The translations under genes and the position numbers were made by a program. The notes under the pieces were generated by a model. That model was given only the letters and a program-made list of their open reading frames with translations, was not told the origin of the DNA and ran no database searches. From positions 1 to 39,120 of IMG/VR virus record IMGVR_UViG_3300017917_001310: 39,120 nt of DNA. One strand, given 5' to 3'. Numbering within the stretch: the first letter of the stretch is position 1; every line of letters starts with the position of its first letter. The stretch comes from a virus. Positions 347 to 27,311 of the stretch are shown piece by piece.

Positions 347-347
347 T

Positions 348-370
348 AATAGGGCCCATGCGGCCCTATT
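348..370 (+). terminator. Hairpin terminator after the curlin-like gene
   Basis: A perfect 9-bp stem, AATAGGGCC (348-356) and GGCCCTATT (362-370), closes a 5-base loop. It starts within two bases of the stop codon. There is no long T tract, so release may be inefficient or factor-aided, but the GC-rich core and position support a terminator. Confidence 0.65.
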
Positions 371-381
371 ACCATGATTAC

Positions 382-389
382 AATAAATA
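382..389 (+). promoter_or_regulatory. Late-type promoter octamer AATAAATA upstream of the cyclase gene
   Basis: AATAAATA lies 21 bases before the ATG at 411 and directly after the terminator at 348-370. It resembles the T4 late promoter TATAAATA, which sits at -10 and is read by a phage sigma factor. A clear Shine-Dalgarno (AAGGAG, about 400-405) follows. The same octamer precedes the genes at 2634, 16683 and, on the minus strand, 12977. Confidence 0.5.
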
Positions 390-410: not shown

Positions 411-2447
411 ATGATTCGTAAAATATTGTTTAGCCCGATTTGGAGTTTTCTTGTTTTAGTATCGTTGGCGTATGTGCATATAATCAATCCTCAATTTATT
501 GAGAGTGTTAGGTTACGTTATTTCGACATGCTGATAACAAATCAGCAACCTGTAGAAAACAACATCTATACAGTTAATATAGACGAAGCAGCAATAGATG
601 CCAAAGGTCAATGGCCTTGGCCTAGAGACGAATATGCTGCACTTATTCAAGATCTTTACAATAGAGGTGCTGGTCTAGTTGTATTCAACGTGCTAATGCC
701 GGAGGCGGACAGAGCAGGACAAGATTTGATTCTGGCGGAAACAATGGGTGCATATCCTGTTATCTTAAACATACTTGGTGCGGAAGAAGGAAAAAATCAA
801 CCTAACAATCCCGGCGCCGCTGTTATCAATTCTGAATTTGTTGACACTATTGTTACTTACCCAAGTATCATAGCAAACGTGCCTATGATAGAAAATGCAG
901 CAATAGGCTCTGGCATTGTTAACACGTTTCCAGAACTAGACGGTGTTAATCGTCGCTTGCCACTTGTAATACAAAGTAACGATGTCTTATACCCTAGCGT
1001 TGTTATGGAAGTATTGCGTATAATTGCAGGTGATCCTAGTTTTCAAATTAAGTTAAGTCAATTTGGTGTAGACAAATTGCGTATACCACAATTTGGTATT
1101 ATTCCTACTGATGAGCTAGGCAGAGTATGGATTGACTGGAGTCAAAAGTCTAAGAGTGTTAGTGCAACTGATTTGCCAAAAGATTTCGGCGGCGCTGTTG
1201 TATTAGTTGCACCCACTGCCGCTGGTATAAACAACCCAGTGTCAACTGCAATTGGTCCGGTGTATCCGCACGAATTACATGCCGCTGTTATAGGAACAGT
1301 GTTTAATCAAAGCAACATAGAACGACCTGCGTGGGCAACACAAGCAGAACTATTATACTTTGTATTAGCTTCGTTGTTATTGATCGTTTTATCACGATGG
1401 ACATATTTAGGTATAGGTGTGTTTGTTGTTCTTATTGGTAGCAGTATCGGCGGCAGTGTATACATGTTTACTGCCTATCATTGGTTAATAGACGGTGTTA
1501 TTATTTCTGCTAGTTTATTACTAGTAGGGCTTGTAAGATACGTGATTAAATTCATTGACGAATTTTTACAAAAACAAAAAGTTAAAAAACAATTCGGAGG
1601 ATATGTGTCTCCTAAGATTGTTGATTTGCTTGCAAAAGACCCAAGCGTTATTGAACGTGGAGTGAAGAAAAACATTAGCATTACAATGACAGATTTGCGT
1701 GGGTTTACTCCACTAGGCGAAAGTTATGGAGACGATGTAGAGGGCCTACGTCAGATAATGAACGATTATATGGAAGCAATAACACAGCCTGTGTTGCTTA
1801 ACGAAGGCACTATAATTAAGTATATCGGCGATGCTAGTTTACACATAAACGGTGCACCATTCGATCAAGACAATCACGAAGTAGTTGCAGTTAAGACCGC
1901 AATTGAAATGATAGAAGCTGTTAACGAATTTAATAAATCATTGGCTGCAAAAGGAAAACCACCTGTGGGCATGGGTGCTGGTATTAATACTGGCCCTACT
2001 GTCATTGGCAATATTGGCAGTTACAAGCGTTACGGGTATGATGTGCTAGGTGATAGTGTTAGCACCGCTGCTCGTCTCGAAGGGCAAACTAAGCCGTATG
2101 GTGTTTTGTTGATACTTGGTCCAGAAACTGCAAAAGTAGCAAAAAACTTTTACCATGTTGTGGAACTAGATTGGCTAGCAGTTAAAGGTAAAACACAAGC
2201 ACTTACAATCTATACAGTAGTATGGAAAGAAACACCTACTAACGAGTTTTGGGTTAACCATGAGCAATTCTTAAAAGAATACAGAGCAGGCAACTGGAAT
2301 GAAGCTACAGTTCTGTCGAACTGGCTAATCGACCATGGTCCAAGAACACTTAGCAAGTATTACGAAATGATGAACGACAGAATCGACGAGTTAGCCGAAG
2401 CAAACATCCAAAACTTTGACGGCGTTTATCGGGCAACTTCAAAGTAA
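411..2447 (+). CDS. CHASE2-domain transmembrane class III adenylate/guanylate cyclase
   Basis: The 678-residue protein has the layout of bacterial CHASE2 cyclases: an N-terminal membrane segment (about 8-25), an extracytoplasmic CHASE2 sensor (about 30-300; note the I-D-E-A-A-I-D and WPWPR signatures near 57-70), three membrane helices (about 312-380), then a cytoplasmic class III cyclase domain (about 393-610) beginning at FGGYVSPKIVDLL. Both metal-binding aspartates are present (D428 in MTDLRGFT, D474 in KYIGDA), as are the adenine-selecting pair K470 and D544 and the transition-state arginine R555. The usual catalytic asparagine (VN in GDxVNxAAR) is serine 551, so activity may be low or altered. 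Expected product is cAMP from ATP at the inner membrane. ATG with AAGGAG; late-type promoter upstream. A full-length cyclase among virion genes of a phage is unusual. Confidence 0.9.
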   Translation: MIRKILFSPIWSFLVLVSLAYVHIINPQFIESVRLRYFDMLITNQQPVENNIYTVNIDEAAIDAKGQWPWPRDEYAALIQDLYNRGAGLVVFNVLMPEADRAGQDLILAETMGAYPVILNILGAEEGKNQPNNPGAAVINSEFVDTIVTYPSIIANVPMIENAAIGSGIVNTFPELDGVNRRLPLVIQSNDVLYPSVVMEVLRIIAGDPSFQIKLSQFGVDKLRIPQFGIIPTDELGRVWIDWSQKSKSVSATDLPKDFGGAVVLVAPTAAGINNPVSTAIGPVYPHELHAAVIGTVFNQSNIERPAWATQAELLYFVLASLLLIVLSRWTYLGIGVFVVLIGSSIGGSVYMFTAYHWLIDGVIISASLLLVGLVRYVIKFIDEFLQKQKVKKQFGGYVSPKIVDLLAKDPSVIERGVKKNISITMTDLRGFTPLGESYGDDVEGLRQIMNDYMEAITQPVLLNEGTIIKYIGDASLHINGAPFDQDNHEVVAVKTAIEMIEAVNEFNKSLAAKGKPPVGMGAGINTGPTVIGNIGSYKRYGYDVLGDSVSTAARLEGQTKPYGVLLILGPETAKVAKNFYHVVELDWLAVKGKTQALTIYTVVWKETPTNEFWVNHEQFLKEYRAGNWNEATVLSNWLIDHGPRTLSKYYEMMNDRIDELAEANIQNFDGVYRATSK

Positions 2448-10792: not shown

Positions 10793-11200
10793 ATGACAAA
10801 AAAAGTAGATCTAAATGCATACACTGACTTTGTAAAAGCAGTAACAAGTGATGCAAGCAATGATCTAGAAGCACTGATTGTGCGACTACGTGAACTAAAT
10901 GAAACTGTAAACATTGCACTATTGATGACAGGTGGCACTGGGCTTGCTAGCGAAGGCGGCGAGTTTAACGAAATTATTAAAAAGTGTGTATTTCAAGGTA
11001 AGCCTATGAACGATGAAACAATCTTTCATATGAAGCGTGAACTCGGGGACATTGCTTGGTATTTTGTAAGTGCATGTCGTGCAATCGGTGAAGACCCGAA
11101 CGAAGTATTAGCAGAAAATGTTCGTAAACTCGAATCACGATATCCAGGAGGATCGTTTGATGTTTACTATTCAGAAAACCGTAAGGAAGGGGATCTATGA
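10793..11200 (+). CDS. MazG-like nucleotide pyrophosphohydrolase
   Basis: The EExx(12-28)ExxD core of the all-alpha NTP-PPase superfamily is seen as GLASEGGEFNEIIKKC (43-58) and KRELGDIAWYFVSAC (about 79-93), followed by the typical NVRKLESRYPGG tail. Such enzymes cut (d)NTPs to NMP and pyrophosphate. Phage MazG proteins of about 135 residues are common in marine myoviruses and may trim host nucleotide pools for phage DNA synthesis. AGGAAACA precedes the ATG; overlaps the next gene by four bases. Confidence 0.92.
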   Translation: MTKKVDLNAYTDFVKAVTSDASNDLEALIVRLRELNETVNIALLMTGGTGLASEGGEFNEIIKKCVFQGKPMNDETIFHMKRELGDIAWYFVSACRAIGEDPNEVLAENVRKLESRYPGGSFDVYYSENRKEGDL

Positions 11201-11880
11201 ACACTCGTGTTATGACTGGTGCAGTCTACGATGATGCACTAAGAACTTTTATGCTTGCTCTTTATAACTACACTGCCGCAGGCTTGGCTATTAGTGGTGC
11301 AGTTGCATATATTACATTTGCTAGCGGTGCATTAGCAAGTATGGGCGCATTGCTATGGCTTTTTGTATTTGCTCCGCTTGGTATGATTCTATACTATAGT
11401 TTTGCAGGACGCAATTGGAGTTTTGCAACTACAAGACTGTTTTACTATGCGTTCACTGCTGTAATGGGCGTAAGCCTTAGCACTATTTTTGCTATCTATA
11501 CTGCCGCAAGTATTGCTCAAGTATTTTTTATTACTGCAGCAACCTTTGCAAGTGCTAGCTTGTATGGATACACTACTAAGAAGGATCTTTCCGGTTGGGG
11601 AAGTTTTCTTATCATAGGACTTGTTGGTATTATTATTGCAAGCCTGGTTAACATTTTCTTACAGTCAAGTGCATTGCAATTTGCTGTAAGTATTATTGGT
11701 GTCATCATCTTTACTGGTTTTACTGCTTATGATACGCAGACAGCCAAAACAGTGTTTATCCGTGGTAGAATGAGCGCAGAAGAAACTGCTAAGTTTGCAA
11801 TTGAAATGGCACTCAATCTATATCTCAATTTCATTAACTTGTTCCAAATGCTATTGAGTCTGCTTGGGAACAGAGAATAA
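11197..11880 (+). CDS. Bax inhibitor-1 / YccA family integral membrane protein
   Basis: Seven hydrophobic helices span the 227 residues. Recognised features are the N-terminal MLALYNYTAAGLAISGAVAY, the central FYYAFTAVMGVSLSTIF and the C-terminal FTAYDTQTAK motif with acidic residues that form the di-aspartyl pH sensor in BsYetJ. Bacterial BI-1 (YccA, YbhL) proteins are calcium-leak channels or modulators of the FtsH protease. A phage copy could protect FtsH targets or change membrane ion flow; that is inference. It overlaps mazG by four bases. Confidence 0.9.
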   Translation: MNTRVMTGAVYDDALRTFMLALYNYTAAGLAISGAVAYITFASGALASMGALLWLFVFAPLGMILYYSFAGRNWSFATTRLFYYAFTAVMGVSLSTIFAIYTAASIAQVFFITAATFASASLYGYTTKKDLSGWGSFLIIGLVGIIIASLVNIFLQSSALQFAVSIIGVIIFTGFTAYDTQTAKTVFIRGRMSAEETAKFAIEMALNLYLNFINLFQMLLSLLGNRE

Positions 11881-12197: not shown

Positions 12198-12977
12198 TTA
12201 ATACTGAATATGCTCCATACCTTTAGCATATACTTCTAAATAGGTAACATAATTTTTCATACTATGATCGCTAAAATTGTCGATCTTACCTTGTTTAATA
12301 CCCATTAGTATGCCACGTATACGATCTTTAAATCGCTGCCATGTAGTGTGTTGTCTTACATTGCCAAATGCATTTAAGTAATGTTCTTCGCCGTCATGTA
12401 TGTATCCTAAAAAGGCTGGCGGCACTTGCGTTACAATATCGTTGTTGTTGACCCAGCGATGGTGCTTAACAGTCAAACTATTAACAAATGTTCTCCACCC
12501 TACACGGGGCGATCCGTAAGTATATAATTCTTCTACTGTTGGCATGATCGGATCGTTTTCACAACGGCTTGCCATAATAGTTGCCATTGCTGCACCTAAA
12601 CTATGACCACAGAACCATGCTTTTCTTGTTTTACCGACTTCGTGTAAATCTTCTTTTATTAACGGCCATAAGTCATCCACTTCACGTTTAAATCCTTTGT
12701 GAACTCGGCCGAATGTTTCTGATCTAACAGGTGCTGCTCGTAAGTCTGCTTTAAGATCATTCCATTGTGTTGGTTGTGTTCCTCTACATGCAATTACAAT
12801 ATCTGTGTCGTTCATAAAACGGTATGCTTGGGCACCGTCTACATTATAAAATTCGACTGTTGTGAATCCTAGTTTATTTGCTTCTGTTACTACAGTTTCT
12901 TGATCGTCGTCGTAAGCTATACTCGCTAGTCTAGCGAATAATAGACTTCGACTAGCGAAATCTAGTTCATTAATCAT
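12198..12977 (-). CDS. Class 3 lipase (alpha/beta hydrolase)
   Basis: The 259-residue product has the lipase GxSxG elbow WFCGHSLGAA with nucleophile S126, the downstream TYGSPRVGW strand, NNNDIVTQVPP (catalytic Asp) and DHSMKNYVTYLE (catalytic His), in the order of the class 3 (triacylglycerol) lipases. No signal peptide. The start at 12977 is chosen because AGGAG lies eight bases upstream; a GTG three codons earlier is possible. A phage lipase may attack host membrane lipid at lysis or act on stored lipid. A late-type octamer and an RBS hairpin precede it, similar to the pattern at the thermonuclease gene. Confidence 0.9.
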   Translation of the reverse strand: MINELDFASRSLLFARLASIAYDDDQETVVTEANKLGFTTVEFYNVDGAQAYRFMNDTDIVIACRGTQPTQWNDLKADLRAAPVRSETFGRVHKGFKREVDDLWPLIKEDLHEVGKTRKAWFCGHSLGAAMATIMASRCENDPIMPTVEELYTYGSPRVGWRTFVNSLTVKHHRWVNNNDIVTQVPPAFLGYIHDGEEHYLNAFGNVRQHTTWQRFKDRIRGILMGIKQGKIDNFSDHSMKNYVTYLEVYAKGMEHIQY

Positions 12978-13016
12978 GGTTGTCACTCCTACTCAAAAAT
13001 ATTTATTGACAACCAT
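12976..13016 (-). promoter_or_regulatory. Late-type promoter inside a hairpin that masks the lipase start
   Basis: Read on the minus strand, a perfect 10-bp repeat ATGGTTGTCA (13016-13007) pairs with TGACAACCAT (12985-12976), which includes the first two bases of the lipase ATG. The 21-base loop holds the end of AATAAATA (complement of 13000-13007) and the AGGAG site. A late transcript begun downstream of the octamer lacks the first arm and so leaves the start free; transcripts from further upstream would be masked. Confidence 0.6.
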
Positions 13017-15639: not shown

Positions 15640-15757
15640 ATTATTTTTAGAGTGGTATAAACTATTACGCTCACGGAAATATTCTAAAATGCTATGTATT
15701 GGTAGTGCATGGTATAACAGCAAGTTTTACACAACAGACGGGAAGTATCGTAAATGA
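15626..15757 (+). CDS. Small basic hypothetical protein (43 aa)
   Basis: ATG at 15626 overlaps the previous gene by 14 bases; the stop overlaps the clamp-loader ATG (ATGA). Sequence starts MARIKLFLEWYKLLRSRKYS and is basic and aromatic. It probably serves translational coupling to the clamp loader at least. Confidence 0.55.
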   Translation: MARIKLFLEWYKLLRSRKYSKMLCIGSAWYNSKFYTTDGKYRK

Positions 15758-16671
15758 AAGAAATTTGGACAGAAAAGTATCGACCTAAAACAGTAGGCGA
15801 GTATGTGTTCAAAGATGCAGCACAAAAAGAACAAGTGTTGCAGTGGGTTAAGAGCGGAACAATTCCGCACTTGTTGTTTAGTGGTAGCCCTGGCACAGGC
15901 AAGACTACACTTGCAAAAGTATTAATCAATGACCTCGGGGTTCAAGATGCTGATGTATTGCTAATTAACGCAAGCCGTGACAACGGTGTTGATCTGATTC
16001 GTCGCAAAATCACTAACTTTAGTGAAACTATGCCGTGGGGAGATGTTAAGGTTATTCTATTAGACGAAGCTGACCACATTTCAGCAGAAGGGCAAGCTGC
16101 ATTGCGTGGAGTTATGGAACAATACGCAAGCACTGTTCGATTTATTCTAACTTGTAACTATCCAAACAAGATTATCCCTGCTATTCATAGTCGCTGCCAA
16201 GGGTTTCATATTACTAGTTTGGACCAAACGGACTTCACAGTTCGCATTGCGGAAATTCTAGTTGAAAACAATGTCCAATTTGAAATTGAAACACTGGATA
16301 GTTTCGTTCGTGCAACGTATCCAGACTTGCGTAAAACTATCAACAATGTGCAAGCTGCTTGTGTTAACGGACAATTGCGTCAAGCAGAATCGTCAGACCA
16401 AGATACCGGCTGGCGTATTAAAATGGTGGAGTTGTTTAAAGCGAAGAAAATCAGAGAAGCACGACAACTAATTATTGCTAATGCTCGTGCAGACGAGTAT
16501 GAAGATATATTCCGCTGGCTATATCGAAATATTACAATGTTCGGAAGCAACGAAGATCAACAAGACGAAGCAGTTATTGTTATCCGTAATGGTATGGTAA
16601 AACATACCCAAGTTGCTGACCCAGAAATCAATCTAAGTGCCACGTTGATTGAATTACAACAGCTCGGCTAA
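15754..16671 (+). CDS. Sliding-clamp loader ATPase (T4 gp44 / RFC small-subunit type)
   Basis: A 305-residue AAA+ protein starting MKEIWTEKYRPKTVGEYVFK, the usual clamp-loader RFC box. Walker A is GSPGTGKTTLAKVL (about 44-57), Walker B is ILLDEADHI (about 100-108), sensor 1 lies in ILTCNYPNKI and the SRC motif in HSRCQGF. It forms the ATPase ring that opens the gp45 clamp and loads it on primed DNA. The gp45 and gp62 partners are not recognised in the window. The small unknown genes upstream are translationally coupled to it. Confidence 0.96.
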   Translation: MKEIWTEKYRPKTVGEYVFKDAAQKEQVLQWVKSGTIPHLLFSGSPGTGKTTLAKVLINDLGVQDADVLLINASRDNGVDLIRRKITNFSETMPWGDVKVILLDEADHISAEGQAALRGVMEQYASTVRFILTCNYPNKIIPAIHSRCQGFHITSLDQTDFTVRIAEILVENNVQFEIETLDSFVRATYPDLRKTINNVQAACVNGQLRQAESSDQDTGWRIKMVELFKAKKIREARQLIIANARADEYEDIFRWLYRNITMFGSNEDQQDEAVIVIRNGMVKHTQVADPEINLSATLIELQQLG

Positions 16672-22270: not shown

Positions 22271-22310
22271 TTGACCTTTGTCTACTCTTGTGCTATGTAT
22301 AAGAGTAGAC
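22271..22310 (+). promoter_or_regulatory. Early sigma-70 promoter inside a perfect 10-bp palindrome
   Basis: TTGACC (22271-22276), 17 bp, TATGTA (22294-22299) with an extended TGC before it. GTCTACTCTT (22280-22289) and AAGAGTAGAC (22301-22310) are perfectly complementary around an 11-base loop that contains the -10. Confidence 0.7.
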
Positions 22311-22331
22311 AGTATTAACAAGGATGCAGCA

Positions 22332-23510
22332 ATGAACTACGAATTTCCAGTAATACGCACTATCCAAGATGTTCTTCCTCATATCGAAGGACGTGACGAA
22401 TTTGTCGTGGCAGAGCGTGATGGTTACACTGTAATTAACTATGCTGTTGCCATGGAAGATACTTTCCCTCCGGTAAAGGTTGCCGGCGGTAGCGCAAAGA
22501 TGCGGGCCGAACGAGCTCTTACTAACGCTATGCGTCGTGAGTGCCGTGGTTTGATCTTTGGACCTGACGGTGCTCTTATGAGCCGTCCGTTTCATAAGTT
22601 CTTTAACGTGAACGAACGTGAAGAAACTCAGATGAACAAAATTGATCTGAGCCAACCTCACGTAATCATGGAAAAGATGGACGGTTCTATGATTCGTCCG
22701 ATTATCGTGAACGGCTGTTTGCGTCTTGCTACCAAGATGGGTGTAACTGAAGTTGCTATGGCTGCTGAAGCGTATCTTGCTTCTCGCAAAGATAGTGGTG
22801 AGATCCTGAACTGGATGCAACGCTGTGTTCAAATCGGAGTTACTCCGATCTTTGAATTCGTAGCACCGACCAACCAAATCGTGCTGAGCTATAGCGAGCC
22901 CGACTTGGTGTTGTTAGCTATCCGTCACAACGAGACTGGTAACTATCTTGTTGAGCAAAACTCGACTCCGTCGGGACTTACTCGTGTTCCGGTTTATGGT
23001 AGTGTAGAAGGTAGCCTTGCCGACTACATTGCTCGGGCTCGCTTGCAAGAGGGACGTGAAGGTGACATTATCCGTTTTGCAGATGGTCATATGCTAAAGA
23101 TCAAAAACGATTGGTATGTGCGTATCCACAAAACTATGGATAAGATCCGTTACGACCGACACATTGTTGAGTTGATTCTACACGAAGAAGTCGACGATGC
23201 AGTTCCAATGTTGCCGCAGCACGAAGCAGACCGTGTTCGTGAATTCGAACGTCGATTTGCAGAACGGCTACATGCACTGGTTGAAAGCTACGAACGTTAC
23301 TACAAGACTGTAGTTGCTTCGGGTCTAGACCGTAAGCGTTACGCTCAGGAATGGATGCCTACGATCAAAGATAACGACTCGTTTGCTCCTAACTATGTGT
23401 TTGGTCGATTTGGTGATCGTGATGGTCGTAAGATGATTATTGACCATATCGAGAAGCATACTTCTACTAACACTCGTTGGGAAGAATGTGCTCGTTGGAT
23501 GGGCATGTAA
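22332..23510 (+). CDS. rnlA: RNA ligase 1 (T4 RnlA family)
   Basis: ATG 22332 is chosen (MNYEFPVIRTIQDVLPHIEG); an upstream extension overlaps the promoter. The 392 residues carry the nucleotidyl-transferase motifs of the T4 Rnl1 family: motif I HVIMEKMDGSM with adenylated Lys K115, motif IIIa VLLAIRH, motif IV FEFVAPTNQIVLSY and motif V EGDIIRFADGHMLKIKNDWY. It seals 3'-OH to 5'-phosphate ends, typically to mend cleaved tRNA anticodon loops. It is alone under the promoter at 22271 and closed by an intrinsic terminator. Confidence 0.96.
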   Translation: MNYEFPVIRTIQDVLPHIEGRDEFVVAERDGYTVINYAVAMEDTFPPVKVAGGSAKMRAERALTNAMRRECRGLIFGPDGALMSRPFHKFFNVNEREETQMNKIDLSQPHVIMEKMDGSMIRPIIVNGCLRLATKMGVTEVAMAAEAYLASRKDSGEILNWMQRCVQIGVTPIFEFVAPTNQIVLSYSEPDLVLLAIRHNETGNYLVEQNSTPSGLTRVPVYGSVEGSLADYIARARLQEGREGDIIRFADGHMLKIKNDWYVRIHKTMDKIRYDRHIVELILHEEVDDAVPMLPQHEADRVREFERRFAERLHALVESYERYYKTVVASGLDRKRYAQEWMPTIKDNDSFAPNYVFGRFGDRDGRKMIIDHIEKHTSTNTRWEECARWMGM

Positions 23511-26195: not shown

Positions 26196-27311
26196 ATGCG
26201 TAAACTTGCTTCGATCCGACGCATTGCTGACATTCTGCCCATCGAGGGTGCAGACGCTATTGAAGTAGCAGTTGTTGACGGCTGGAAAGTTGTCATTAAA
26301 AAAGGCGAATTCGCTGTTGGTGATAGTGCTATCTATCTTGAAATTGATAGCTGGGTCCCACATGATATTGCTCCGTTCCTTAGCAAGGGCCACGAGCCCC
26401 GTGAATACAACGGTGTGAAAGGCGAGCGTCTTCGCACTATCAAGCTTCGTGGACAAGTTTCGCAAGGTTTACTTCTGAACTACTGGGATTTTCCAGAAGT
26501 TGTTACTGCATTTCACAAGACCCGTGTAGTTGATCCTACTGATACTGACAGTAACTTTGACGTCACTGATATCCTTGGTATCCAAAAGTGGGAAGCTGAA
26601 ATCCCTGCTCAGTTGCAAGGGCAAGCTGCAGGCATGTTCCCAACTTCGTTGATTCCTAAAACGGATCAAGAACGGATTCAAAACTGCTTTGGCGAGATTC
26701 AAAAGCGGGCAAAGCGGTTTGTCACTGAAAAGGTCTGGAACACGGAAACACAAACTCTTGAAGAGCGTCCTGTTGTTGTGCCGGCAGATTTCAAGGAACC
26801 GACTTACGAAGTCACTATGAAGCTGGATGGATCAAGCTGCACAATCTTCCGCTGGGAAGGTGAACTTCGTGTTTGCAGTCGGAACCTTGAACTCAAAATC
26901 AACGAAGAGAACAAAGACAACACCTTTGTCGCTATGGCGCTCAAACTTGGCGAGCGCATCCCAAATGGTGTAGCTGTTCAAGGTGAACTGATGGGGCCGG
27001 GTATTCAAGGTAACCGTGAGGGGTTTACTGAGCATAAATTCTTTGTGTTCGACATCTTTGATATCGATCGACATACCTACATCAATACTCTTGATCGTAG
27101 GGTGGCGTGTAAGTCTTGGGGTTTTGACCATGTCCCGGTTATCACCACCGATGCCAACGCACCTGGCAGCGTCGAAGAAGGTCTTGCTTTTGCCGAAGGT
27201 CCAAGCATCAATCACAAGATCCGTGAAGGTCTTGTTTGGAAGTGCAATGAAGACCCGAGCTTCAGCTTCAAGACTATCAGCAACCAGTTCCTGCTAAAAG
27301 GCGGGGACTGA
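26196..27311 (+). CDS. RNA ligase, DraRnl (DRB0094/Rnl5) family
   Basis: The 371 residues include an N-terminal OB-type domain (LASIRRIADILPIEGADAIE, GDSAIYLEIDSWVP) characteristic of Deinococcus DraRnl, then a ligase core with motif I VTMKLDGSS (K209), motif Ia RVCSRNLELK, VQGELMGPGIQ (motif III-like), KFFVFDIFDIDRH and motif V EGLVWKCNEDPSFSFKTIS. DraRnl seals nicked duplex RNA, including 3'-OH RNA on a DNA or RNA template. With Rnl1 this gives the phage two RNA ligases of different families. It follows the cREC gene. Confidence 0.94.
   Translation: MRKLASIRRIADILPIEGADAIEVAVVDGWKVVIKKGEFAVGDSAIYLEIDSWVPHDIAPFLSKGHEPREYNGVKGERLRTIKLRGQVSQGLLLNYWDFPEVVTAFHKTRVVDPTDTDSNFDVTDILGIQKWEAEIPAQLQGQAAGMFPTSLIPKTDQERIQNCFGEIQKRAKRFVTEKVWNTETQTLEERPVVVPADFKEPTYEVTMKLDGSSCTIFRWEGELRVCSRNLELKINEENKDNTFVAMALKLGERIPNGVAVQGELMGPGIQGNREGFTEHKFFVFDIFDIDRHTYINTLDRRVACKSWGFDHVPVITTDANAPGSVEEGLAFAEGPSINHKIREGLVWKCNEDPSFSFKTISNQFLLKGGD

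Follow-up and report, generated by a model that had tools for sequence, protein, structure and literature searches.

What does a phage do with a membrane-bound nucleotide cyclase whose active site lacks a textbook catalytic residue? The question is raised by a gene near the left edge of a 39,120-nucleotide stretch of viral DNA (IMG/VR record IMGVR_UViG_3300017917_001310, positions 1 to 39,120; hereafter, the window). The original prediction, made from the letters alone, described a phage-encoded, full-length CHASE2 transmembrane cyclase with Ser551 at the position of the transition-state Asn. Three roles were offered for it: to raise cAMP, to make another cyclic nucleotide, or to act as an inactive nucleotide-binding membrane protein that interferes with cyclic-nucleotide immunity.

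The open reading frame runs uninterrupted from ATG to TAA, and the parts of its product are collected in Table 1. Both domains score far above their curated Pfam cut-offs (131.4 bits against 26.3 for CHASE2 and 62.1 bits against 21.9 for the class III cyclase domain), and a match to PHROG 35576 spans the whole protein (E 1e-197). The full-length architecture predicted for this phage gene was therefore confirmed by the intact ORF, the Pfam domains, and the phage relatives described below. An AlphaFold2 model built from a 49-sequence alignment (mean pLDDT 89.7) places helices at residues 309–327, 331–356, and 363–395, and Foldseek matched the modeled catalytic domain to the solved class III cyclases Cya2, CyaB, and CyaC with a target-normalized TMt of 0.84–0.88. 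Judging from ORF lengths, the C-terminal tail is absent or shorter in many HTVC008M-type relatives. The metal-binding (D428 and D474), adenine-selecting (K470 and D548), and transition-state Arg (R555) residues are all kept, as had been read from the sequence, and residue 551 is indeed Ser, where class III cyclases have a transition-state Asn as a usual but not strictly defining trait (PMC4215837).

Table 1 Features of the cyclase gene and of its upstream flank in the window.
Feature	Position	Strand	Evidence
CHASE2-class III adenylate cyclase (predicted), Ser551 type, 678 aa	411..2447	+	Pfam, PHROG, full-length relatives
N-terminal transmembrane helix of the cyclase, residues 7–25			AlphaFold2 model, hydropathy
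Periplasmic CHASE2 sensor domain, residues 21–325	471..1385	+	Pfam PF05226, E 5.5e-38
Three C-terminal transmembrane helices leading into the signaling helix, residues 309–395	1335..1595	+	AlphaFold2 helices and hydropathy peaks
Class III nucleotide cyclase domain, residues 419–599	1665..2207	+	Guanylate_cyc PF00211, E 6.9e-17
Ser551 codon AGC, replacing the transition-state Asn	2061..2063	+	Alignment/sequence
C-terminal helical tail, residues 606–678	2226..2444	+	Model helices 611–663
C-terminus of the second curlin-repeat protein (phage T8SS module), cut off where the contig begins	2..346	+	BLAST/tblastn
Intergenic GC-rich 10-bp hairpin, curlin gene to cyclase gene, may end a transcript	347..371	+	Energy z-score only -1.68
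ATAAATA, likely T4-type late promoter core, 28 nt 5′ of the cyclase ATG	383..389	+	Motif scan

The cyclase gene is genuinely phage-borne. In one scan, at least 599 IMG/VR contigs encoded relatives, jumbo-sized contigs of 229–358 kb among them, and full-length or near-full-length versions are present in two cultured phages, Methylophilales phage Melnitz and Pelagibacter phage HTVC008M (39% and 35% identity to the window protein over the aligned length, respectively). The gene is single-copy in each of the 22 phage records searched. In the CHASE2 tree, from which the divergent HTVC008M row is omitted, the phage versions form one clade (support 100) separate from bacteria. The family is probably bacterial in origin, and probably alphaproteobacterial, as bacterial homologs exist (PMC9599517), and the window is a 39-kb fragment with no defined ends, which might suggest a host–phage chimera or a newly captured host gene without a phage function. 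This is hardly credible, however, given the separate phage clade, the breadth of viral contigs with complete isolate genomes among them, the low dN/dS, and the T4-type late promoter likely to precede the gene; the genomes of HTVC008M and Melnitz already refute a chimera or a host gene. A pseudogene is likewise ruled out by the intact ORFs of relatives and by the dN/dS. Hence, neither of the two findings named beforehand as fatal to the prediction, a chimeric contig or a gene disrupted in all relatives, was made.

The window phage had no DNA-level match in the phage collection. Its sliding-clamp loader (15754-16671, + strand) is closest to those of PA5oct-like Pseudomonas jumbo phages (54% identity), suggesting that the contig derives from part of a jumbo phage genome. 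The window also encodes a Bax inhibitor-1 family membrane protein (11197-11880, + strand; PF01027, E 2.3e-55) and two different RNA ligases, one of the RnlA/tail-fiber-attachment type and one of a second family (22278-23510 and 26196-27311, + strand). One database entry was rejected: CAKLQH020000011, labeled Acinetobacter phage MD-2021a, carries mfd and an isc cluster and looks like a bacterial chromosome. CAKLQF020000009 bears the same label, CAKLQH020000011 being the contig examined.

The gene had been placed in a virion-gene neighborhood, which holds for the genes that follow it; the curli (type VIII secretion, T8SS) module that precedes it had been missed. The left contig edge cuts this module, so that the window keeps only the C-terminus of the final curlin-repeat protein. 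This truncated ORF is 55% identical to L007:3696-5345 of a related contig, 87 of its 92 BLAST matches have a cyclase at most 2.5 kb downstream, and tblastn also matched it to HTVC008M and Melnitz; with the Pfam curlin repeat alone it falls below the cut-off. The complete module is visible in relatives, including L007 (72% identical), where it reads csgF-csgG-curlin-fecR-curlin-repeat gene-cyclase, with the cyclase last. Where 5.9 kb or more of upstream sequence was available (100 loci), the same-strand upstream genes encode FecR (94 loci), curlin (93), CsgG (91), and CsgF (89), and each module gene was found in 49 of 51 Melnitz-type loci and in 20–21 of 21 HTVC008M-type loci; these tallies start from the cyclase and give the frequency of the module per cyclase, not that of the cyclase per module. 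Judged by this gene order, the window cyclase is the terminal gene of a phage curli/T8SS module. Curlin repeats suspected by eye in the FecR tail were not found by Pfam, and a curlin HMM matched 0 of 117. Two small separate ORFs also match the cyclase model, L049:2025-2348 (36 bits) and L142:4511-4918 (56 bits), the former lying near the module and resembling the end of the catalytic domain with the C-terminal tail.

The association of the cyclase with curli genes is already known, since Wittmers et al. 2022 (PMC9599517) reported a phage T8SS module with FecR and an adenylate cyclase among its parts; CsgGF had been noted earlier in pelagimyophages (PMC7029224), and a curli module was also reported alongside Melnitz (PMC9004378). 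The window cyclase has the same architecture as those of HTVC008M and Melnitz, the same CsgF, CsgG, curlin, and FecR partners, and the same module order ending in the cyclase. It differs from them in having its own late promoter and in belonging to a phage with a PA5oct-like jumbo clamp loader, and its Ser551 sets it apart from the HTVC008M-type pelagimyophages, which carry Asn-type cyclases; the Melnitz cyclase is of the Ser type.

The late-type promoter of the original prediction was recovered as an ATAAATA motif shortly before the start codon. The motif occurs at five sites in the window, where 12.4 would be expected by chance, each of them just upstream of an ORF start and on the strand of that ORF, and among 156 relatives, 30 have it no more than 90 nt before the cyclase, compared to 1.5% of random windows. 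This scarcity, this placement, and the enrichment in relatives make a T4-type late promoter likely for the window cyclase, though it is not universal among relatives. The hairpin that separates the curlin and cyclase genes might mark a transcript end and shows no U-tract on the + strand. A class 3 lipase gene in the window (12198-12986, − strand; PF01764, E 3.1e-21) has its own ATAAATA late-type promoter (13000-13006).

Is Ser551, then, damage or a variant? The conservation check proposed with the original prediction gave only two states across 232 distinct phage catalytic domains, Ser (138 domains) and Asn (94), while D428, K470, D474, D548, and R555 are invariant in all of them. One pattern of the 599-contig scan demanded S or N at position 551; scans without it show the same two states, and an unbiased subset counted 31 S and 17 N distinct domains. 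An earlier tally of 124 “viral” sequences took in four loci from genome bins, and Ser is found in genome bins on three phage-like contigs with the curli module (L082-L084). The bacterial CHASE2 cyclases sampled, in contrast, lie outside curli operons and have Asn in 57 of 57 cases, apart from one SAR116 locus. This Ser-type single-cell contig (L085/L171) is bacterial-looking, with the cyclase followed by FecR and no curli genes. Its CHASE2 domain is very divergent, while in the catalytic domain it belongs to the phage Ser clade; a phage-to-host domain transfer is possible.

The phylogeny against bacterial CHASE2 cyclases that had been called for added a Ser catalytic clade to the phage CHASE2 clade, with support 100 for each. 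In two catalytic-domain trees (93 and 118 rows) from which column 551 was left out, a single change accounts for Ser (support 100). In an earlier catalytic-domain tree the Ser group was nested within the main phage clade, on a long branch (1.17 substitutions per column, support 100). On these trees, Ser551 arose once, within the phage clade, along with about a dozen further substitutions in the catalytic domain. Purifying selection on the Ser-type catalytic domain is strong (median dN/dS 0.066 over 110 pairs).

Loss of the canonical Asn could still mean a dead pseudocyclase, which would bind ATP or a cyclic nucleotide and serve either as a structural sensor or as a sponge that counters cyclic-nucleotide immunity, and the catalytic domain does resemble Pycsar PycC models, though through ordinary class III homology. 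Yan et al. are said to have found in 1997 that mutating the transition-state Asn of a mammalian adenylyl cyclase strongly cuts its activity. Ma1120 of Mycobacterium avium belongs to a lineage different from that of the window cyclase and has no CHASE2 domain. Both enzymes lack the transition-state Asn, with Ala in Ma1120 and Ser in the window cyclase, and both keep the Arg, Lys, and Asp, yet Ma1120 is an active class III cyclase, and restoring the Asn (A164N) makes it less active (PMC4215837). Moreover, the metal-binding Asps and Arg555 are invariant in the phage family, Asn-type homologs with a complete active site fill the same gene position, and the conserved neighbors are curli genes, with no defense or anti-defense gene among them.

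The profile match to PycC is weak (E 6.7e-12) and far below the match to CHASE2 cyclases. The two share the class III catalytic fold, but the window cyclase keeps the adenine-selecting Lys and Asp and has a CHASE2 sensor; no Pycsar effector was seen beside it, its neighbors being curli and virion genes, and it does not belong to PycC. A literature search on a Pycsar/CBASS link returned nothing relevant, and this link was rejected as generic catalytic homology with no such neighbors. We consider a catalytically dead protein, whether structural sensor or anti-immunity sponge, very unlikely, and nothing in the neighborhood points to interference with cyclic-nucleotide immunity. The invariance of the five other residues, the low dN/dS, and the activity of Ma1120 argue that Ser551 is no sign of inactivity. 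It is a conserved and selected variant of the active site and not damage.

Ser- and Asn-type catalytic halves have also been swapped beneath related CHASE2 sensors. On the CHASE2 tree, the Ser/Asn label needs seven changes among the phage rows. L034 (Asn) and L053 (Ser) have 82% in common in CHASE2 but 47% in the cyclase domain, whereas the window protein and L002 share 65% in CHASE2 and 96% in the cyclase domain, the CHASE2 of L002 being closer to that of L012 (84%). Between the window and L002, synonymous sites have reached saturation, so this exchange is old. Neither the Ser variant of single origin nor the exchange of catalytic halves is described in the literature searched, a search that covered papers without their supplementary files.

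The N-to-S change does not stand alone: 14 columns, its own included, are nearly fixed within each phage type and differ between Ser and Asn. Differing columns beside catalytic residues include 469, 476, 478–480, 544, and 552, among them D469I, A478H, F479I, W480H, and S/T544D in the Ser lineage. Together with the single origin on a long branch, these changes could indicate a pocket remodeled upon the Asn-to-Ser change and a neofunctionalized lineage, still catalytic, whose product is another cyclic nucleotide or whose rate is very different. We regard this as unlikely, because the adenine-selecting K470 and D548 are invariant in 232 of 232 domains and because, within one and the same module, closely related sensors carry either a Ser or an Asn half, pointing to a shared output.

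The best reading, which we hold to be reasonably probable, is an active adenylate cyclase that senses a periplasmic FecR/curli signal and forms the terminal signaling part of the phage T8SS module. Late in infection, the protein would be inserted into the host inner membrane, where its periplasmic CHASE2 domain would read a periplasmic signal, most likely its partner FecR and/or the state of curlin secretion. Via the three transmembrane helices and the signaling helix, the signal would reach the class III catalytic domain, a homodimer that would convert ATP to cAMP. As no CNB-domain effector (PF00027) was found in the 22 phage records, the cAMP would act via host effectors; searching the literature for a cAMP receptor of SAR11 hosts yielded nothing of use. 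Counted against this adenylate cyclase reading are the activity loss ascribed to Asn mutation in the mammalian enzyme and the changes at D469, A478, F479, and W480 beside the substrate-selecting Lys in the Ser lineage; owing to these changes, the product or the rate could differ.

FecR is often adjacent to the cyclase in the bacterial homologs examined as well. At 20 loci from alphaproteobacteria and other Pseudomonadota, it is the neighboring gene in seven, against 0.08 expected; no curli genes were found near the cyclase at these loci, and csgG is present in only two of the same 20 genomes. From this adjacency without nearby curli genes, we infer that FecR and the CHASE2-cyclase already formed a periplasmic sensing pair before the phage module joined them to curli secretion. 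Gene adjacency would also be consistent with a contact between FecR and CHASE2. The Sinorhizobium cyclases CyaD1, CyaD2, and CyaK have a CHASE2 sensor and a class III cyclase domain in common with the window protein, and they offer a precedent for such sensing, as CHASE2 cyclases of Sinorhizobium raise cAMP when a protein signal arrives by way of an outer-membrane barrel (PMC13001267). Another parallel is a Burkholderia operon with a CHASE2 kinase and FecR, which controls biofilm (PMC5192318).

Phage curli modules are abundant in the ocean, and sibling capture, lysis timing, and macromolecule uptake have been published as guesses on their purpose. A conserved periplasmic sensor-cyclase closes nearly every module examined (all of them found via the cyclase), which implies that the second-messenger state of the infected cell is coupled to curli/FecR status. 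In a broader and tentative scenario, somewhat unlikely as a whole, phages would once have evolved a remodeled class III cyclase, with Asn-to-Ser and coordinated changes near the substrate-selecting Lys, that spread by catalytic-half swaps beneath curli-module CHASE2 sensors and gives infected cells a second-messenger output, possibly of unusual product or regime, tied to phage amyloid secretion. In the Ser/Asn split, nature provides two enzyme variants that can be tested directly against each other. If the Ser type is active, a cyclase can lose the textbook transition-state Asn and still work.
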